Positions 35,077 to 50,239 of a DNA stretch of 64,000 nt are shown piece by piece. This DNA is from Gemmatirosa kalamazoonensis (lineage in GTDB: Bacteria > Gemmatimonadota > Gemmatimonadetes > Gemmatimonadales > Gemmatimonadaceae). The notes beneath the pieces were generated by a model, which saw only the letters and a list, made by a program, of their open reading frames with translations, searched no databases and was not told the origin of the DNA. How positions within the stretch are numbered: the first letter of the stretch is position 1; each line of letters begins with the position of its first letter. The translations under genes and the position numbers were made by a program. The DNA is taken from NCBI RefSeq assembly GCF_000522985.1, contig NZ_CP007130.1:806001-870000 (forward strand), written 5' to 3'.

Positions 35077-35089
35077 GGAGCGGAGATGC

Positions 35090-35262
35090 TCGGGACTCGG
35101 GACTCGGGACTCGGCACTCGGGTCGGATGGCACTCGCTCCGCTCGTGCCTTCATGAAAGAAAGCGAGCGTAGCGAGCACACCGCAAAGAAAGCGAGCGTA
35201 GCGAGCACACCGCCCCGAGTCCCGAGTCCCGAGTCCCGAGTCCCGAGTCCCGAGTCCCGAGC
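35090..35262. repeat. Tandem-arm hairpin (H12) with GGACTCG units and a 29-bp direct repeat
   Basis: GGACTCG units run from 35090, and complementary CGAGTCC units run from 35214 to 35262. Between them lies AAAGAAAGCGAGCGTAGCGA plus nine bases, a 29-bp unit present twice in tandem (35156-35184 and 35185-35213). That unit also pairs with CACTCGCTCCGCTCG at 35131. The element fills the gap between the convergent permease genes. Confidence 0.85.
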
Positions 35263-38290: not shown

Positions 38291-38310
38291 TATCGACTTT
38301 GTCGAAGATA
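38291..38310. promoter_or_regulatory. Candidate PadR operator
   Basis: TATCGACTTTGTCGAAGATA is an imperfect palindrome about 14 bp upstream of the PadR TTG start. It lies in the short divergent region shared with the alpha-2-macroglobulin gene. Position and symmetry suggest autoregulation; PadR identity of the binder is inference. Confidence 0.5.
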
Positions 38311-38417
38311 TGACGGGGTCGGACGCTCGCAAGTTTCACCGACGCGCGACGCGGCATGCTGGACAAGCCATTCGTCACATACGAGCCTTGGGGCCACCGC
38401 CCACGCCCGAGGCCTCC

Positions 38418-41400
38418 GTGCGCCGCCGCTTCGCCCTGCTCGCTCTCGTCGCCGCCCAGGCGCACGCACAGCCCGCCGCGCCGCTGCGCGTCATCCGCGC
38501 GACCCCCGCCGGCGATGCCGCGCCGAGCGCCGAGATCGCGGTCACGTTCGACCGCCCCGTCGCCGGCTCGCTGGATCGCACCGTGGATCCCGCGACCGTG
38601 CTGCGCGTCGAGCCCGCGGTGCGCGGACGGCTCGAGTGGCGCGATCCCGTCACCGTGCGACTCGTCCCGTCGGAGATGCTCGCGCCGGGCACGCGCTACG
38701 CCGTCACGGTCTCCACCGCGTTCCGCGCGATGGACGGCAGCGCGCTCGCCGAGCCGTATCGCTTCTCCTTCCGCGCGCAGGGCCCCACGCTGCTCGGCGG
38801 CAGCCCGGTCGCCGCGGACGACCACCCGCGCGTCACGACGACGCAGCGGTTCGAGCTCGTGTACTCGGCGCCCGTGGATCTCGAGAAGCTCTCCGGCGCC
38901 GCGTTCGCGGAGTTCCGGGCGTCGTGCGCCGGCGGGCGGCGCATCGTCAGGCTCCGCGCGGCCGCGCAGCGACGCGTGCGCGACGACGACCCGTGGCGGC
39001 TGCGGGAGGCCGGCGGCTACCAGCGCGACCACAAGCTCGACTCGCTGCGACGCGTCGTGCAGCTCGCCCCCGAGTCGGCGATGCCGCGCGGCTGCGTCGG
39101 CGATCTCGTCGTGCCCGCGGAGATCGAGGACGAGCGGCTGCGCGATCCCGCGCGGTGGCCGTTCGAGACGTACGGCGACTTCCGCGTCGCGACGGTGGAG
39201 TGCGGCGGCGGCGACTTCTGCCCGACCGGTCCGCTGCGCGTGACGTTCGCCACGCCGGTGCGCGGCGCCGAGGTGCTGCGCCGCGTGAAGCTCCTTCCGG
39301 CCGTGCCGTTCGCGGTGCGCGACACGGCGAGCGAGTCGACGACGTGGACGCTCGAGGGACGGCTCGTGCCGCACACCGTGTACGCGGTCGTCGTCGACAC
39401 CGCGATGCGCGACGTCTTCGGCCAGCCGCTGCGCGGCAATCCCGCCGCCGCGTACCGCACCACGGGCTACGCACCGTCGGTGACGTACGCCTACGGCCGA
39501 CTGCTCGTCGAGCGTGCCGGCTTCCGCACGCTCGCCGTGCAGCACGTCAACGTCGACACGCTCGTCGCCACCATCGCCGCGGTGCCCGACTCGCTGGAGG
39601 CACGCGTGCTCCGCCGCGTGAGCTGGGGCGACGACAGCGTGTGGTCCACGCTCGCGCGGCGCGCCGTCAGGCAGCGCGTGCCGCTGCGCGCCGCGCGCGA
39701 CCGCGCGATGCTCACCGGCATCCGGCTGCCGGCGCCCGACGCCACGACGCGCGCACCCACGCTCTACGCGATCAAGGTCGCGGGTCGCTCGACCACGAAG
39801 GACACCGTCGCCGACGGGCCGCTCGCGCTCGTGCAGGTCACCGACCTCGGTGTGCACACGCGGTTGGGCACCACCGAAGCGGCAGTGTGGGTCACCGGCG
39901 TGCGCGACGGGCTGCCGCGCGCCGGCGCCGCGGTCACGCTGTTCGACGTGCGCGGCCGCCGGCTCGGCGCCGCGCGCACCGACGCGCGCGGGCTCGCCCG
40001 CCTAACGGGTCTGCCTCGCGACCCGTCCGGTGGCGAGGCGGACGACGACGAGCGGGGCGACCTCGAGGGCTTCGTCACCGTGACGCTGGGCGACGACCGC
40101 GCGGTCGCGTCGGTGAGCCGCTACGACCCCGACCTCTCGCCGTGGCGCTTCGACGTGAGCGGTGCGTGGGGCGCCGAGCGGCTGCCGCTCGCCGGCGCGG
40201 TGTTCACCGAGCGCGGGATCTACCGGCCGGGAGAGCGCGTGTACGCGAAGGCCATCGTCCGCGACGGCGCGCTGGGCAGTCTGCGCGTGCCGCAGCGTGG
40301 CGACTCCGTGAAGTGGATCTTCCACGACCGCGAGGACGGCGTGCTCCGTGCGCACACCGCCGCGCTCTCCGCGTTCGGCACGGCCGATCTCTCGGTCGAC
40401 GTGCCCGCGCTCGCGCCGGTCGGCAGCTACCGCGTCGAGATCCAGGCGCGGCGGCAGGGGCAGTGGCAGTCGTTCGCCGAGTCGCGCTACCGCGTGGCGG
40501 AGTACCGGCCGCCGGAGTTCCTCGTCGATCTCGCCGCCGACAGCGGCGCGAAGCGACCCGGCGATCGCCTGACGGTGAACGTGCAGGCGCGCTACCTGTT
40601 CGGCGCTCCCATGGCGCGTGCCGACGTGACGTGGACCGCGCGACGGACGCCGGTGTCGTCGTGGGAGCTCGAGATCCCGGGGCTCGACGGCTGGTACGTC
40701 GGCGACGCGGACAACTGGTGGGAGGACGCGCCGGAGCCCGACTCCGACGTGTTCGCGAGCGGCGTCGACACGCTCGACGCACGCGGCGCGCGCAGCCTGA
40801 CGGTCACGCTTCCCGCGCCGGCGAAGGGCCGCCCCGCGCGCGTCACGCTCGACGCGACGGTCACCGACGTGAACCGGCAGGTCGTCGGCGCGAGCGCGAC
40901 GGCGCTCGTGCATCCGGCCGACTTCTACGTCGCCGCGCGGCCGAACGGCGCGAGCTACTTCTGGCAGGGCGGCGTACCGCAGTCGGTCGGCGTGCTCGCC
41001 GTGCGGCCGAACGGGGAGAAGGTGAGCGGCGTGCGCGTGCGCGGCGCGGTCGTGCGGCGCGAGTGGCACCGCGTGCGCCGCGAGCGCGACGGCGTTTCCG
41101 AGCTGGTCGGCGAGTGGGTGGCGGACACGGTCGCGCGGTGCGCGATCACCACGGCGGAGGCGCCTAACGCCTGCGCGTTCACCCCGAAGGAGGGCGGCAT
41201 CTACGTCGTCTCGTTCACCGCCACCGACGCCGCGGGGCGCCGCGCGTCCACCAGCTTCCAGCGCTGGGCGGCCGGCAAGGAGTGGGTGCCGTGGAGCGAC
41301 GAGACGCAGTTCAAGATGGACGTCATTCCCGACCGGCAGCGCTACTCCGTGGGCGACACGGCGACGGTGCTGTTCGCGTCGCCGTTCACGAACGCGGAAG

Positions 41401-44096
41401 CGTGGATCACCGTCGAGCGCGAGGGGCTCATCGAGCAGCGGCGGCTGCGCATCACGAGCGGCTCGACGACGCTGAAGTTCCCCATCACCGAGGCGTACGC
41501 GCCGAACGCGTTCGTGTCCATCATCGTCGCGCGCGGCCGCTCGGCGCCGCCCGGCCCCGTCGACGATCCCGGGCGTCCGACGATCCGCGTCGGGTACGCG
41601 GAGCTGCGCGTCACGCCGGAGGTGAAGCGCCTCGCGGTCGCCGTGAAGCCGTTAGGCGCCGAGTACCGACCGGGCGACACGGCGCGCGTCGCGCTCCATG
41701 TCGCGGACGCACGTGCGCGCGGCGTGCGGAGCGAGGTCACGCTGTGGGCGGTGGACGAGGGCGTGCTCGCGCTCACCGCCTACCGGACGCCGGATCCGAT
41801 CGACCTCGTGTACCAGGCGCGCGGGCTCGGCATGCGCCTGGCCAGCAACATGACGAACGTCGCGCCGCAGGTGCCCGAGGGAGAGAAGGGCAAGCGTGAG
41901 GCCGGCGGCGGCGGCGGCGCGGCGGGCGCCGACGTGCTGCGCTCGCGCTTCCAGACGACGGCGTTCTTCCTCGGCTCGGTCGTGACCGACGCGAACGGCG
42001 ACGCGGTCGCCACCGCGAAGCTCCCCGACAACCTCACCACGTTCCGCGTCATGGCCGTCGCCGTGACCGCGGGCGACCGCTACGGCAGCGGCGACGCGTC
42101 GCTGCTCGTCACCCGCCCGCTGCTCGCACGTCAGGCGCTGCCACGGTTCGTGCGGCCGGGCGACGAGTTCGTCGCGGGCGCGGTGGTCAACCGGCGCGAC
42201 GGCCGCGCGTCGAGCGTGCGCGTGCGCGCCACCGCCACCGGCGTGGCGCTGCGCGGCGACGCCGAGCGCACGGTGACGCTCGCCGCCGGCCGCGGGAGCG
42301 ACGTGCGCTTCCCGTTCCGCCTCGACCGCCGCACCGTGGCCGACGACAGCGCGACGTTCCGCTTCGACGTGAGCGGCGACGGGGACGCGGACGCGGTGCG
42401 CGTCGCGCTGCCGGTGAAGCCCGACTACCATCCGCGCGCGTTCGTCGCGTCGGGCGTGCTGCGCGACACCGCGACGGTGGATCTGCGACTGCCCGCCGGC
42501 ATCGACCCGGCGCGGTCTCGCGTCACGCTCACCGTCGGCGGATCGCCGCTGGCGACCATTCGCGGCATCGCGCGCCAGCTCCGCGTCTACCCGTACGACT
42601 GCACGGAGCAGGTGACGAGCGAGGCGCTGCCGATCCTCGCGCTCCACCGCGCCCGTCCGAGCGACACGACACGTCGCGAGATCGCGCGTGCGGTCGACGT
42701 CATCAGCCGCCGCCAGCGCGGCGACGGCGGCATCGGCTACTGGTCGAGCACCGACTGGACGAGCGCGTGGCTCAGCGCGTACGCGGGGCTCGTGCTCGTC
42801 GAGGCGCGCGACGCCGGCGTGCGCGTGGACTCGGCGGTGTTAGGCAGGCTCGCCGCGTACGTCGTCGCGGACCTCAAGGGCACCGGCGCGCCGCAGTTCA
42901 CCCCCGTCGCGAACCGCCATCCGCAGCGCCTCGTGCGGCTGAGCGACCAGGTCGCGGCGGTGGACTTCCTGAGTCGCTACGGCCGCCCCGACGCCGCGGC
43001 CGAGAACTCGCTGCTGCGCAACGCCGCGCAGTTGGGCACCGAGGACCGCGCGCGGCTGGCCGAGGTGCTCGCCCGCCGCGGCCAGCTCCCCGTCGCGCGC
43101 CGGCTGCTCGAGCCGACGTGGCGCCTCGTGCAGGTGGAGGGGCGGCGCGCCGTGCTCCCGGAGTCGACGACGACGCTGTACTTCGAGTCGACGGTGCGCC
43201 CCGTCGCGCGGCTGCTCACCGCGACGCTCGCCGTCGAGCCGGAGCACGCGCTCATCGGGCCGCTCGTCGAGACGCTCGCGCAGCAGGGGCGCGCGACGGA
43301 GCCGTGGAACACACAGGACTACGCGAGCGCCGTCTCCGCGCTCGCCGCGTACGACCGCGCGCGGAGGGCGTTGGGCGGCGACCGGCCGGTCCAGGTGCGG
43401 GATGCGCGCGGCCGCGTCGCGCTGCGCGCCGAGCCGCAGCGCGACTCCACCGTGCCGCTCGCCGGCCTGCTCGCCGGACCGCCTAACGATCCGCGGCTCG
43501 CCGCGCGGCTCGATGCCGGCGCGGGCGACGCGCCGGTGTACTGGTACGTCACCGTCACCGAGGTGCCCACCGCACCGCCGGTGACGCCGGAGGACCGCGG
43601 GATCCAGGTGGAGCGCTGGTACGAGCGCTACCCGGCCGGTGGCCCGGTGACGCGCATGGCCGAGGGCGATCTCGTGCGCGTGCGGCTCCGCATCACCGTG
43701 CCGAACACGCGCCAGTTCGTCGTCCTCGACGACGCGCTCCCCGCCGGGCTCGAGGCGGTGGACCTCAGCCTGCGCACCGCGTCGTCGATGCCCGGACCGG
43801 GCGCGGCGCCTGACGACGCGCGCGGGTCCGACCAGCCCGACGCGCCGCAGTGGGGCTACGGCCGCTGGGACGCCGGCTGGTGGTCCCCGTTCGACCACGA
43901 GGAGATCCGCGACGACCGCGTGGTGTACTCGGCCAGCGTGCTGTGGCCGGGCACCTACACGGCCACGTACATCGCGCGCGCGACGACCGCCGGCACGTTC
44001 GTCCGACCGCCGGCGCACGCCGAGGAGATGTACAACCCCGGCGTGCACGGTCGCAGCGACGGGGGAACGTTCGTGGTGACGGAGAAGCGGCCGTGA
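38418..44096 (+). CDS. Bacterial alpha-2-macroglobulin, thioester type
   Basis: 1892 residues from GTG 38418, giving a signal peptide R-R-R-F-A-L-L-A-L-V-A-A-Q-A-H-A-Q; an ATG at 38310 would bury it. MG domains fill the first half (E-R-G-I-Y-R-P-G-E-R-V-Y-A-K, a classic MG3-type motif, at about 600), then L-P-D-N-L-T-T-F-R before the thioester domain. The thioester motif C1395-T-E-Q1398 is intact, so it can covalently trap proteases. No lipobox, so probably soluble in the periplasm, unlike lipidated E. coli YfhM. It is followed, overlapping by 4 nt, by pbpC, the conserved partner: together they are thought to guard and repair the envelope after protease attack. Confidence 0.95.
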   Translation: MRRRFALLALVAAQAHAQPAAPLRVIRATPAGDAAPSAEIAVTFDRPVAGSLDRTVDPATVLRVEPAVRGRLEWRDPVTVRLVPSEMLAPGTRYAVTVSTAFRAMDGSALAEPYRFSFRAQGPTLLGGSPVAADDHPRVTTTQRFELVYSAPVDLEKLSGAAFAEFRASCAGGRRIVRLRAAAQRRVRDDDPWRLREAGGYQRDHKLDSLRRVVQLAPESAMPRGCVGDLVVPAEIEDERLRDPARWPFETYGDFRVATVECGGGDFCPTGPLRVTFATPVRGAEVLRRVKLLPAVPFAVRDTASESTTWTLEGRLVPHTVYAVVVDTAMRDVFGQPLRGNPAAAYRTTGYAPSVTYAYGRLLVERAGFRTLAVQHVNVDTLVATIAAVPDSLEARVLRRVSWGDDSVWSTLARRAVRQRVPLRAARDRAMLTGIRLPAPDATTRAPTLYAIKVAGRSTTKDTVADGPLALVQVTDLGVHTRLGTTEAAVWVTGVRDGLPRAGAAVTLFDVRGRRLGAARTDARGLARLTGLPRDPSGGEADDDERGDLEGFVTVTLGDDRAVASVSRYDPDLSPWRFDVSGAWGAERLPLAGAVFTERGIYRPGERVYAKAIVRDGALGSLRVPQRGDSVKWIFHDREDGVLRAHTAALSAFGTADLSVDVPALAPVGSYRVEIQARRQGQWQSFAESRYRVAEYRPPEFLVDLAADSGAKRPGDRLTVNVQARYLFGAPMARADVTWTARRTPVSSWELEIPGLDGWYVGDADNWWEDAPEPDSDVFASGVDTLDARGARSLTVTLPAPAKGRPARVTLDATVTDVNRQVVGASATALVHPADFYVAARPNGASYFWQGGVPQSVGVLAVRPNGEKVSGVRVRGAVVRREWHRVRRERDGVSELVGEWVADTVARCAITTAEAPNACAFTPKEGGIYVVSFTATDAAGRRASTSFQRWAAGKEWVPWSDETQFKMDVIPDRQRYSVGDTATVLFASPFTNAEAWITVEREGLIEQRRLRITSGSTTLKFPITEAYAPNAFVSIIVARGRSAPPGPVDDPGRPTIRVGYAELRVTPEVKRLAVAVKPLGAEYRPGDTARVALHVADARARGVRSEVTLWAVDEGVLALTAYRTPDPIDLVYQARGLGMRLASNMTNVAPQVPEGEKGKREAGGGGGAAGADVLRSRFQTTAFFLGSVVTDANGDAVATAKLPDNLTTFRVMAVAVTAGDRYGSGDASLLVTRPLLARQALPRFVRPGDEFVAGAVVNRRDGRASSVRVRATATGVALRGDAERTVTLAAGRGSDVRFPFRLDRRTVADDSATFRFDVSGDGDADAVRVALPVKPDYHPRAFVASGVLRDTATVDLRLPAGIDPARSRVTLTVGGSPLATIRGIARQLRVYPYDCTEQVTSEALPILALHRARPSDTTRREIARAVDVISRRQRGDGGIGYWSSTDWTSAWLSAYAGLVLVEARDAGVRVDSAVLGRLAAYVVADLKGTGAPQFTPVANRHPQRLVRLSDQVAAVDFLSRYGRPDAAAENSLLRNAAQLGTEDRARLAEVLARRGQLPVARRLLEPTWRLVQVEGRRAVLPESTTTLYFESTVRPVARLLTATLAVEPEHALIGPLVETLAQQGRATEPWNTQDYASAVSALAAYDRARRALGGDRPVQVRDARGRVALRAEPQRDSTVPLAGLLAGPPNDPRLAARLDAGAGDAPVYWYVTVTEVPTAPPVTPEDRGIQVERWYERYPAGGPVTRMAEGDLVRVRLRITVPNTRQFVVLDDALPAGLEAVDLSLRTASSMPGPGAAPDDARGSDQPDAPQWGYGRWDAGWWSPFDHEEIRDDRVVYSASVLWPGTYTATYIARATTAGTFVRPPAHAEEMYNPGVHGRSDGGTFVVTEKRP

Positions 44097-46456
44097 CGGT
44101 GCTCGGCGGGTTCGTCCGCAGATTACGCATATTACGCAGATTGCGTGGATCGCCTGTTCCGTTAGGCACAAAGGACGGTCGGCATGGTCTGCGCAATCTG
44201 CGTAGTCTGCGGATCGTCGTTGCCGTTGCCGTTCCTGTCGCCGCCGCGACCTGGATCGCCTGGCCGCTGCCCGACGATCTCCTCTCGCACGACCGCGCGA
44301 CGGGCGTCACGATCGTCGACCGCGACGGTGCCGTGCTGCGCGCCACCCGCGCCGCCGACGGTACCGATGCGTCGTGGGTGCCGTACGACCGCATCGACCC
44401 CGACGTCATCACCGCGTTCGTCGCCGTGGAGGATCGCCGCTTCTGGGAGCACCACGGCATCGACGCGCGCGCCGTGCTGCGCGCCGCGTGGCGCAACGTG
44501 CGCGCGCGCCGCGTCTCCTCCGGCGCGTCGACGATCACCATGCAGCTCGCGCGGCTGCTGCGCCCGCGCGGCCGGAGCGCCGCGGGGAAGGTCGCGCAGG
44601 CGCTGTGGGCGCTCCGCCTCGAGGCACACGTCGGCAAGCAGCGCATCCTCGAGGAGTACCTGAACCGCGTGCAGCTCGGGCAGGGCACCGCCGGCGTCGG
44701 CGCGGCGAGCGCGGCGTACTTCGGCGCGTCGGCGTCGGAGCTGAGCCTCGCGCAGGCCGCGCTGCTCGCCGGCATCGCGCACGCGCCGTCGCGCGACAAC
44801 CCGCACGCGTCGCCTGCGCGCGCCCGCGCGGCTCGTCTGCTCGCGCTGCGCCGCCTCCGTCGACTCGGCCTGACGGATTCGGAGACCGTCGCGCGGGCGC
44901 GCGTCGAGCCGCTCGTGGTGCCGCCGCGCGTCGCGCCGTTCCTCGCGCCGCACTTCACCACGCGCGTGCTCGCCTGGAGCACCGCCGACCGACGCGGTGC
45001 GCCGATCCGCACCTCGCTCGACCTCGGGCTGCAGATGGAGCTCGAGGGCGAGGTGCGGCACACCGTCGACATGCTCGGCGACCGCGGCGTACGACAGGCA
45101 GCGGCGGTGGTGCTCGACAACGCGAGCGGCGAGGTGCTCGCGTGGGTCGGCTCGCCCGACTTCTGGTCGAGCGACGACGGGCAGACCGACATGGTGATGT
45201 CGCCGCGCCAGCCCGGGTCGGCGCTGAAGCCGTTCCTGTACGGGCTCGCGTTCGACCGCGGCTACACCGCCGCGACGGTGCTGCCCGACGTGCCGAAGGC
45301 GTACCCCACCGCCACCGGTCCCTACGCGCCACGCGACTACGACCGCCGCTTCCGCGGCCCCGTGCGCGCACGCGAGGCGCTCGCCAGCTCGTACAACGTC
45401 CCCGCCGTCGAGCTCGCGTCGCGGCTCGGCGCCGGCGCGCTGCTGCAGACGCTGCACCTCGCGGGCTTCGCGTCGTTGGGCAGGGACGCCGAGCACTACG
45501 GGCTCGGGCTCGCGCTCGGCAACGGCGACGTGACGCTCGTGGAGCTGGCGAACGGCTATCGCGCGCTCGCGAACGGCGGCGTGTGGCGGCCGTGGACGTG
45601 GCGTGCGGGCGCCGCCGGCGAACCGCGGCGCGTGCTGTCGCCGCTCGCGAGCGCGCTCGTGCTCGACATCCTGCAGGACGCCTCCGCGCGCATCCCCGGC
45701 TTCGGCGTGAGCACGCCGTTCGACTTCCCGTTTCCCGTCGCGGTGAAGACGGGCACGAGCCGGCACTTCACCGACAACTGGGCCGTCGGCGCGACGGCGC
45801 GCTTCACGGTCGCCGTGTGGGCCGGCAACTTCAGCGGCCAGCCGATGCAGGGCGTGAGCGGCGTCACCGGCGCCGGCCCGCTGCTGCACCGCGCCGTCAT
45901 GGCCGCGTCGCGCCGCGTGTCGCCCGGTACGCTGCCGTCGCCCGAATCGTTAGGCGCGGAGCGCGTCGCGGTGTGTCGGCTCTCCGGGCTCCGCGCGACC
46001 GACGCGTGCGCGCGCCTCGACGAGTGGTTCGCGCCCGGCACCGCGCCCACGCGCGCCGACGACTGGGAGCGGGGCGGCGTCGTGGTCCTCCCCGACGAGT
46101 ACGCGGCGTGGGCGCGAAACGGCGCGCACCCCGCCGGCGACGGCCCGACGCTCCCCGCGACACGGCCCGGCACGCGCGCCGTCCCCGCCACGCGCGCCGC
46201 ATCGTTAGGCATCTCGCGCTTCCGCATCCTCTCCCCGCTCGACGGCGACCGGTATGCGATCCCCGTGGGCGTCGAGGCGCGGTACGCGACGATCGGTCTG
46301 CGGGCCGCGGGTCCCGGCGCGGCGCATGTGACCTGGACGGTCGACGGCGTCAGGCACGACGGGGAGCGGTGGGCGCTCGTGCCCGGAGCGCACGAGATCG
46401 TGGCCGCGTCGGCGCGAGGCGATACGGCGAGGGCGAGGGTCGAGGTCACACCATGA
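44093..46456 (+). CDS. pbpC: Penicillin-binding protein 1C (bifunctional peptidoglycan synthase)
   Basis: 787 residues from GTG 44093, overlapping the macroglobulin stop (GTGA). After an unusual Leu/Arg-repeat N-terminus (~10-45) comes one membrane helix, then transglycosylase GT51 (E-D-R-R-F-W-E-H-H-G, G-A-S-T-I-T-M-Q-L-A-R). The transpeptidase has P-G-S-A-L-K-P-F (Ser-x-x-Lys), S-S-Y-N and K-T-G-T-S. A BiPBP_C domain closes it (F-R-I-L-S-P-L-D-G-D-R-Y). All catalytic motifs intact. The Leu/Arg N-terminus is encoded by a tandem-arm repeat (H13). The overlap supports this start; otherwise a start after the repeat would be guessed. Confidence 0.93.
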   Translation: MTVLGGFVRRLRILRRLRGSPVPLGTKDGRHGLRNLRSLRIVVAVAVPVAAATWIAWPLPDDLLSHDRATGVTIVDRDGAVLRATRAADGTDASWVPYDRIDPDVITAFVAVEDRRFWEHHGIDARAVLRAAWRNVRARRVSSGASTITMQLARLLRPRGRSAAGKVAQALWALRLEAHVGKQRILEEYLNRVQLGQGTAGVGAASAAYFGASASELSLAQAALLAGIAHAPSRDNPHASPARARAARLLALRRLRRLGLTDSETVARARVEPLVVPPRVAPFLAPHFTTRVLAWSTADRRGAPIRTSLDLGLQMELEGEVRHTVDMLGDRGVRQAAAVVLDNASGEVLAWVGSPDFWSSDDGQTDMVMSPRQPGSALKPFLYGLAFDRGYTAATVLPDVPKAYPTATGPYAPRDYDRRFRGPVRAREALASSYNVPAVELASRLGAGALLQTLHLAGFASLGRDAEHYGLGLALGNGDVTLVELANGYRALANGGVWRPWTWRAGAAGEPRRVLSPLASALVLDILQDASARIPGFGVSTPFDFPFPVAVKTGTSRHFTDNWAVGATARFTVAVWAGNFSGQPMQGVSGVTGAGPLLHRAVMAASRRVSPGTLPSPESLGAERVAVCRLSGLRATDACARLDEWFAPGTAPTRADDWERGGVVVLPDEYAAWARNGAHPAGDGPTLPATRPGTRAVPATRAASLGISRFRILSPLDGDRYAIPVGVEARYATIGLRAAGPGAAHVTWTVDGVRHDGERWALVPGAHEIVAASARGDTARARVEVTP
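44117..44219 (+). repeat. Tandem-arm hairpin inside the pbpC reading frame (H13), 9-bp units
   Basis: CGCAGATTA, CGCATATTA, CGCAGATTG, CGTGGATCG (from 44117) form the left arm. CTGCGCAAT, CTGCGTAGT, CTGCGGATC form the right arm (to ~44217). Unit length 9 keeps the frame open: the arms encode R-R-L-R-I-L-R-R-L-R-G and L-R-N-L-R-S-L-R-I. The loop carries a GTTAGGC motif at 44161. Confidence 0.8.
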
Positions 46457-48835: not shown

Positions 48836-50239
48836 ATGCGCCGCTTCGTGCTCTTGACCGTCCTCACGCTGCTCGCCGTCGGCGCCGTGCCCGCCGCCGT
48901 GGGCCGCCTCGCCGCCCGGCCGCGCCCCGCGTCCGCGACGCCGAGCACGGCCACGGCGCCCGTCGTCGATGCCGACTCGGTGCGCGACCTCGACATCGCG
49001 TTCTGGGCCCGGCGCGGCAGCACGGATCCGTTAGGCGCCGAAGACCGCGTGATGCTCGCCTCGCTGCTGCTGCAGCGGGCGCGCGAGACGGGGAGCTACG
49101 GCGACTACCTGCGCGCCGACTCCGCGGCCCGCGTCGCGCTGCGCATCCGGCCCATGCGCAACGATCGCGCGATGGTGCTGCTCGCCTCCGCGCTCATGGC
49201 GCAGCATCGCTTCGTCGACGCGTACGACCTCGCCGCGCGGCTCGACGCGGAGTCGCCGGGCATCCCGAGCTACGAGGCGCTGCGCGGCGAGATCGCGCTC
49301 GAGCTCGGGCGCTACGACGAGGCCCGCGCGCTGTTCGACTCCGTGCTTGTCGTCGGCGGCGCGGTCGACGAGACGGTCGCCGCGCGCGTCGCGCGATGGG
49401 AGGAGCTCACCGGCCGCTCGACGCAGTCCCGCGCGCGATTCGCCGCCGCGGCGCGCGCCGCGCTCGCGCGCTCCTCGACGCCCGCGGAGCAGCGCGCGTG
49501 GTTCCGGCTGCGGCTCGCCGACCACGACCTGCGCCATGGCCGTCTCGCCTCCGCCGACTCGCTGCTGCACGCCGCGCTCGGCGACGCGCCGAAGGACTAC
49601 CGCGTGCTCGGCGCGCTCGCTCGGCTGGAGTGGATGCGCGCGCGATACGCGGAGTCGGCCGCGTGGGGCGAGCGCGCGGTGACCGTGACGCTCGATCCGC
49701 AGACGCTCGCGCTGCTCAGCGACGACTACGCGGCGCTCGGCGACACGGCGCGCGCGGCGCAGTTCGCCGATGCCATGCGCGCGTCGGTGCTCGCGCAGAC
49801 CGGGCCGCTGCATCGCGCGTGGAGCCTGTTCCTGCTCGACCACGGGCGCGACGCGCGCGGCGTGCTCGCGCGGAGCCGCGCCGAGCTGCGCACACGGCGC
49901 GACGTGTACGGGTGGGACGTGGAGGCGTGGGCGCTGCACGCGCTCGGCCGGGACGCCGCGGCGTGGGACGCGATGTCGCGCGCGCTCGCGCAGGGGACCG
50001 AGGACGCGATGCTCGAGTACCACGCCGGCGTGATCGCGCAGACGCTCGGCCGCGCCGACGCGCGTGCGCACCTCGCGCGCGCGCTCGCGCTCAACCCGTC
50101 GTTCCACCCGACCCAGGCGGCCGACGCGCGGCGGCGAATCGAGGGCACGAGGGCAGGAGGGCAGGAAGGCAGGAGAGGGAACGGGGAAGGCTCCTGCCCT
50201 CCGGCCCTCCTGCCCTCCTGCCCTGGAGCCGTCCGATGA
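48836..50239 (+). CDS. Exported tetratricopeptide-repeat protein
   Basis: 467 residues, ATG 48836. A signal or anchor helix ([13 protein letters not shown]) is followed by about ten degenerate TPR units ([39 protein letters not shown]). The last ~30 residues are of a different kind, rich in Gly, Pro and Arg ([12 protein letters not shown]), and are encoded by a tandem-arm hairpin (50143-50222). Its stop overlaps the HupE start by ATGA, so the operon continues through the repeat. Likely a scaffold for the HupE/DUF6702 system downstream. Confidence 0.85.
50143..50223 (+). repeat. Tandem-arm hairpin inside the 3' end of the TPR gene (H15)
   Basis: GCACGAGGGCAGGAGGGCAG (from 50145) pairs with CTGCCCTCCTGCCCT (50206-50222). 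Units are 7-8 bp (GGCAGGA). It lies fully inside the TPR reading frame and ends 13 bp before its stop, replacing the C-terminus with repeat-encoded residues. Confidence 0.8.

Follow-up and report, generated by a model that had tools for sequence, protein, structure and literature searches.

In a 64,000-nt stretch of the Gemmatirosa kalamazoonensis genome (contig NZ_CP007130.1, positions 806,001 to 870,000; hereafter the window), the gene for penicillin-binding protein 1C (pbpC) carries a hairpin with tandem-repeat arms between its start codon and the single predicted membrane helix of its product. We consider it very probable that this was a genome-specific non-coding hairpin, inserted behind the stop codon of the upstream macroglobulin gene and captured in frame as an N-terminal segment of PbpC (Table 1). 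What the sequences show directly is the position and frame of the element, the lack of a usable downstream start, its absence in relatives, its membership in a hairpin family of this genome, and a parallel case at the same junction in another genome, G027. The original prediction, made from the letters of the window, of a hairpin repeat in frame at the PbpC N-terminus had both the sequence and the coordinates right.

Table 1. Features of the macroglobulin-pbpC junction and further in-frame hairpins (positions are those of the window, except for the NRPS copies)
Feature	Position	Strand	Remarks
Alpha-2-macroglobulin-like gene	38310..44096	+	ORF, stop TGA 44094-44096; start codon provisional
Putative Shine-Dalgarno sequence GGAGAAG	44081..44087	+	5 nt 5' of GTG 44093; sequence plus inference
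pbpC (penicillin-binding protein 1C), 787 aa	44093..46456	+	GTG start; TIGR02073 and Pfam
Tandem-armed hairpin, whole	44113..44214	+	DNA fold (z -5.9) and outer ends of family members; ends approximate
Left arm, CGCAGATTA units	44117..44145	+	One unit longer than right arm
Element codons, PbpC residues 9-40, RRLRILRRLRGSPVPLGTKDGRHGLRNLRSLR	44117..44212	+	Translation
Spacer between arms	44146..44191	+	Holds one GTTAGGC at 44161
Right arm, TAATCTGCG units	44192..44212	+	Codes for last basic residues before membrane helix
Predicted membrane helix core IVVAVAVPVAAATWIAW, residues 41-57	44213..44263	+	Hydropathy scan
Second hairpin of window, GGGCAGGA 8-mer	50139..50227	+	In frame, C-terminus of TPR-like ORF
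NRPS hairpin copies	C4 596515, 608710, 621891, 625124, 638149		L147, L148, L149, L149, L149

The upstream ORF has Pfam matches to bMG3, MG2, bMG5, A2M_BRD, A2M, and bMG10, and its stop codon is overlapped by the GTG codon of pbpC (44093-44095) as GTGA. PbpC scored 569 bits against TIGR02073 (cut-off 494), the match being full-length (profile positions 10-727 of 728), and its Transgly, Transpeptidase, and BiPBP_C domains were all recognised by Pfam. Although the insertion is recent and its codons non-native, as might be expected if pbpC were decaying and the element marked a tolerated lesion, these matches make decay the least probable of the alternatives we weighed. The only ATG, GTG, or TTG codons in the PbpC frame 5' of the membrane helix are at 44093, 44099, and 44141; there is none between 44144 and 44332. 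A start after 44219, which the original prediction had named as the finding that would refute it, would cost the protein its helix, because the next in-frame candidate, GTG 44333, is already past it. Since the inserted codons have a non-native look, a coding-statistics gene caller does place the PbpC start at 44333. That call, the folding of the RNA as a very stable hairpin, and CTG or ATC codons at 44189, 44198, 44207, and 44213 could be taken to mean that PbpC translation begins 3' of the element, or inside it at a non-canonical codon, and that the hairpin is a linker or attenuator between the cistrons. We regard this as very unlikely: the first canonical start on that side lies beyond the helix, the pbpC starts of relatives sit at the overlap, and no ribosome site is evident for the CTG and ATC codons, of which any except the last would, as a start, leave right-arm codons in the translated part. 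TTG 44141 is in the PbpC frame as well, and initiation there would leave the right half of the element alone to be translated; however, nothing comparable to the GGAGAAG upstream of GTG 44093 precedes this TTG, and the overlap start is conserved among relatives, which makes the TTG less likely again. With GTG 44093 as the start, the hairpin codons would be translated as part of PbpC.

Within the element, tandem CGCAGATTA 9-mers occupy 44117-44142 and the right arm is made of their reverse-complement units; the inverted arms proper (44126-44145 and 44192-44211) are 20 nt long, 90% complementary, and 46 nt apart. Single-stranded DNA of the region 44111-44218 was predicted to fold at -30.4 kcal/mol (z = -5.9 relative to dinucleotide shuffles) with the left arm's one surplus 9-nt unit forming a bulge. 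Searching for the CGCAGATTA arm pattern with ≤3 mismatches gave 29 matches in the genome, making up ~15 hairpins, and none in a reversed control. With ≤2 mismatches the arm family was found in none of the 248 other Gemmatimonadota genomes among the 249 searched, and it is therefore lineage-specific. A search for plasmid relatives gave no match in a plasmid collection, and text searches of the literature for the repeat units and for tandem and inverted repeats in Gemmatimonadetes returned nothing. Because three of the six frames of the element are open (and a third of insertions keep frame, giving an in-frame passage by chance in ~1 of 6 cases), we rejected the open frame as a chance argument for capture; its openness counts for little, and the comparison with relatives carries the case.

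The N-terminus of PbpC reads VTVLGGFV-RRLRILRRLRGSPVPLGTKDGRHGLRNLRSLR-IVVAVAVPVAAATWIAWPLP. As had been predicted, the 9-bp unit keeps the reading frame on both arms and gives a tail of Leu/Arg repeats, RRLRILRRLRG ... LRNLRSLR. If the element codons were removed no Arg or Lys would be left before the helix, where relatives have 1-7, and because the arginines of the arms are the sole basic residues in that region they are probably the positive-inside anchor of the PbpC helix. From the last Arg to PLP, the predicted helix has 17 residues here versus 20-25 in relatives inspected by eye, and such a shorter helix could alter the membrane insertion of PbpC.

Our comparison covered 24 orthologous loci in Gemmatimonadota, in 21 of which the neighbourhood is kept and the C-terminus of the alpha-2-macroglobulin-like protein was seen upstream of pbpC. 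Fifteen of these 21 junctions share the 4-nt stop/start overlap and three abut at +2, and a start 5' of the repeat is therefore ancestral; the original prediction had placed the start 5' of the repeat from the GTGA overlap. All orthologues but one have a short N-terminal tail without the hairpin, which identifies the hairpin as an insertion and agrees with the expectation that relatives would lack the repeat and start at the equivalent overlap. Between the start and the conserved [DE]RxG motif, 13 relatives have 45-59 residues, against 75 in the PbpC studied here and 117 in locus L052 of G027. As the arm family is lineage-specific, the insertion postdates the split from the relatives compared, all of which lie outside the genus. 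The best PbpC match was to this same G027 protein (70% identity; L010 and L052 being one locus), in which the same stop/start overlap is followed by an in-frame extension of ~75 residues before the helix. The extension sequence is multi-copy, as 51 further matches to it were found in the G027 genome, and its repeat units are unrelated to CGCAGATTA. At one and the same junction, two genera thus have unlike repeats that are open in frame, a parallel capture that makes the process testable by comparison.

We searched C4, C3, and the first 280 kb of C2 (2.43 of the 7.48 Mb of this genome) for hairpins with arms that are tandem arrays of 7-10 nt, using reversed, non-complementary arms as the control, and found 183 tandem-armed hairpins versus 26 in the control. 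A simple codon-statistics caller placed 133 of them outside genes; 9 overlapped a gene in part, and 41 had 80% or more of their length within genes. This in-gene count is approximate, as the gene calls are mechanical and the frame of some, above all in C2, may be wrong; 87% of the scanned sequence was called coding, and 20 of the 26 control hits fell in genes. The population accumulates just 3' of stop codons, as had been suggested for copies of the repeat elsewhere: non-genic hairpins lie at a median of 32 nt from a stop codon (212 at random), with 50% of them at ≤30 nt (12% at random), and they are enriched about twofold in convergent gaps (39 versus 17.9 expected). Freedom from stop codons in all six frames was seen in 61% of the in-gene hairpins, 26% of those outside genes, and 14% of the intergenic control.

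This clustering behind stop codons, a stable RNA stem (44060-44240, z = -5.1), and compatibility with in-frame translation would also suit a hairpin retained to tune the expression of PbpC relative to macroglobulin, through a stem-loop and translational coupling, with the peptide as a neutral by-product. We consider such retention rather unlikely, given that the hairpin family is confined to this genome, with no conservation, and that 18 of the 21 junctions overlap by 4 nt or abut at +2, all but one without an extension of this sort. Returning to capture as the preferred reading, we infer the membrane topology of PbpC and the insertion route of the element as follows. An element of the stop-associated population would have inserted ~20 nt 3' of the macroglobulin stop, a typical site for such elements, and since the pbpC start lies within this same stop codon, the insertion would have fallen within the PbpC N-terminus too. 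With the frame kept and no stop in the PbpC frame, the protein would have gained ~29-32 Leu/Arg-rich residues; a short cytoplasmic tail before a single helix may tolerate such an addition, and selection for intact PbpC would have left only an in-frame, stop-free event. On this scheme elements that collect behind stops would hit N-termini wherever genes overlap, by falling inside the next gene.

The original prediction had singled out pbpC as the place where the repeat was absorbed into a protein; the sequence supports this for PbpC, but the event is not exceptional, as dozens of related in-frame hairpins lie within called genes. Five NRPS adenylation regions have an in-frame hairpin in one shared loop, between 'VPDP' and 'YRTGDL' and adjoining AMP-binding domains (Pfam-checked for one). 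Four of these copies have CGGGACT-type units and the fifth a different unit; in an ungapped comparison of their flanks one copy was offset by a base, and independent insertion and gene conversion are both compatible with this. Two RND efflux pumps (L130, C4 252733, and L226, C3 978630) share an in-frame CGGGACT-type hairpin in the same loop, spanned in each by a single ACR_tran match, and in a ClpB protein a hairpin lies between the AAA lid and the second AAA domain. In both pumps we also observed an outer-membrane-efflux (OEP) domain later in the same open frame.

An automatic listing gave seven more N-terminal captures laid out like that of pbpC, immediately 3' of an upstream stop. The right arm codes for the sole apparent signal-peptide core in a beta-lactamase family protein (C4 681723, L152:1723-1830; ALLCVLCVLCGSN), in which there is no start codon in frame until residue 56, and in an M15 peptidase (C4 684646, L152:4646-4747; VVLLCVLRVLCGS), in which there is none until residue 78. 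At C3 938585-940426, the right arm of a hairpin with a different unit gives the apparent signal-peptide core VVHILSILFILST, the next start being at residue 48. We tentatively suggest, at somewhat less than even confidence, that hairpins repeatedly became N-terminal topogenic segments, as basic residues in PbpC and as signal cores (LLCVLCVLCG, LLCVLRVLCG, and HILSILFILS) in at least three genes. Such recurrence could arise because hairpins settle behind stops and genes often overlap (ATGA, GTGA, TGATG). If true, the repeat family would time and again have furnished export signals and membrane anchors, and if the signal-peptide cases hold, the repeats would be raw material for new targeting sequences. 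The TPR-like ORF with the second hairpin of the window overlaps the following gene at its end (ATGA, 50236), and this hairpin is the counterpart, at a C-terminus, of the one in pbpC.

Rickettsia palindromic elements (RPE; Ogata et al. 2000) are dispersed palindromes of ~100-150 bp that lie mostly between genes; in-frame fusions to conserved protein genes have also been reported, in 19 reading frames, and the host protein tolerates the insert (PMC2229807). The hairpins described here are similarly dispersed palindromes found between genes and in frame within them (183 hairpins in 2.43 Mb, 41 of them in genes, with the pbpC element at ~100 nt). They differ from RPE in that their arms are tandem 7-10 bp units of several unrelated families, their host is a GC-rich free-living lineage, and many of the captures follow an upstream stop codon directly; we do not claim RPE membership. 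The enterobacterial RU/ERIC are small inverted-repeat sequences, chiefly intergenic, with ORFs fused in frame to genes, and these fusions include predicted transmembrane and signal-peptide segments (PMC2229807). Our hairpins share with them small size, inverted repeats, a chiefly intergenic location, and in-frame fusion. RU/ERIC are single-sequence families with MITE-like ends, whereas the units of our hairpins differ from family to family and from genome to genome. MITEs of the RU/ERIC or NEMIS type combine terminal inverted repeats with a target-site duplication and a cognate transposase; of these, inverted ends were observed in the pbpC element. Delihas in 2007 reportedly treated enterobacterial RU/ERIC as small mobile sequences with fused ORFs. 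REP/BIME palindromes, which are moved by RAYT (Y1) transposases, are likewise short multi-copy hairpins clustered behind genes. A REP/RAYT origin is not supported, as Y1_Tnp (PF01797) had no match in the whole genome (7.48 Mb) in a search whose control was positive in 5 of 14 known genomes. The pbpC capture works like the RPE and RU/ERIC fusions, and we file it as neither RPE nor MITE. New here are the tandem-repeat arms, the lineage of the host, the association with sites behind stops where gene pairs overlap, and the parallel capture at pbpC. To the in-frame captures of palindromic repeats known from Rickettsia and enterobacteria, this adds dozens of cases in a GC-rich Gemmatimonadota genome.

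The motif GTTAGGC in the spacer of the pbpC hairpin occurs at 46 further places in the window, with the consensus CGTTAGGC[G/A]. In the scanned 2.43 Mb it is ~36-fold over-represented (1891 copies versus 53 expected), TTAGGC being preceded by G in 1891 of 1899 cases, and GCGTTAGGC occurs 1689 times in the genome versus 43 for its reversed control. The latter is also abundant in the family members G005, G011, G019, and G020, and not in most others. Within genes, one codon phase (TTA GGC) accounts for most copies of GTTAGGC, and the motif is enriched at gene ends; 28% of copies lie outside called genes. It resembles a DNA-uptake or HIP1-like motif, and a text search of the literature returned no paper naming it. 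A tie between GTTAGGC and the hairpins was rejected, as 10.4% of elements contain it versus 12.4% of matched random places. Elsewhere in the window, a hairpin of CTCGGGA heptamers (35089-35261) has in its spacer a perfect two-copy 29-bp tandem, AAAGAAAGCGAGCGTAGCGAGCACACCGC, at 35156-35213.
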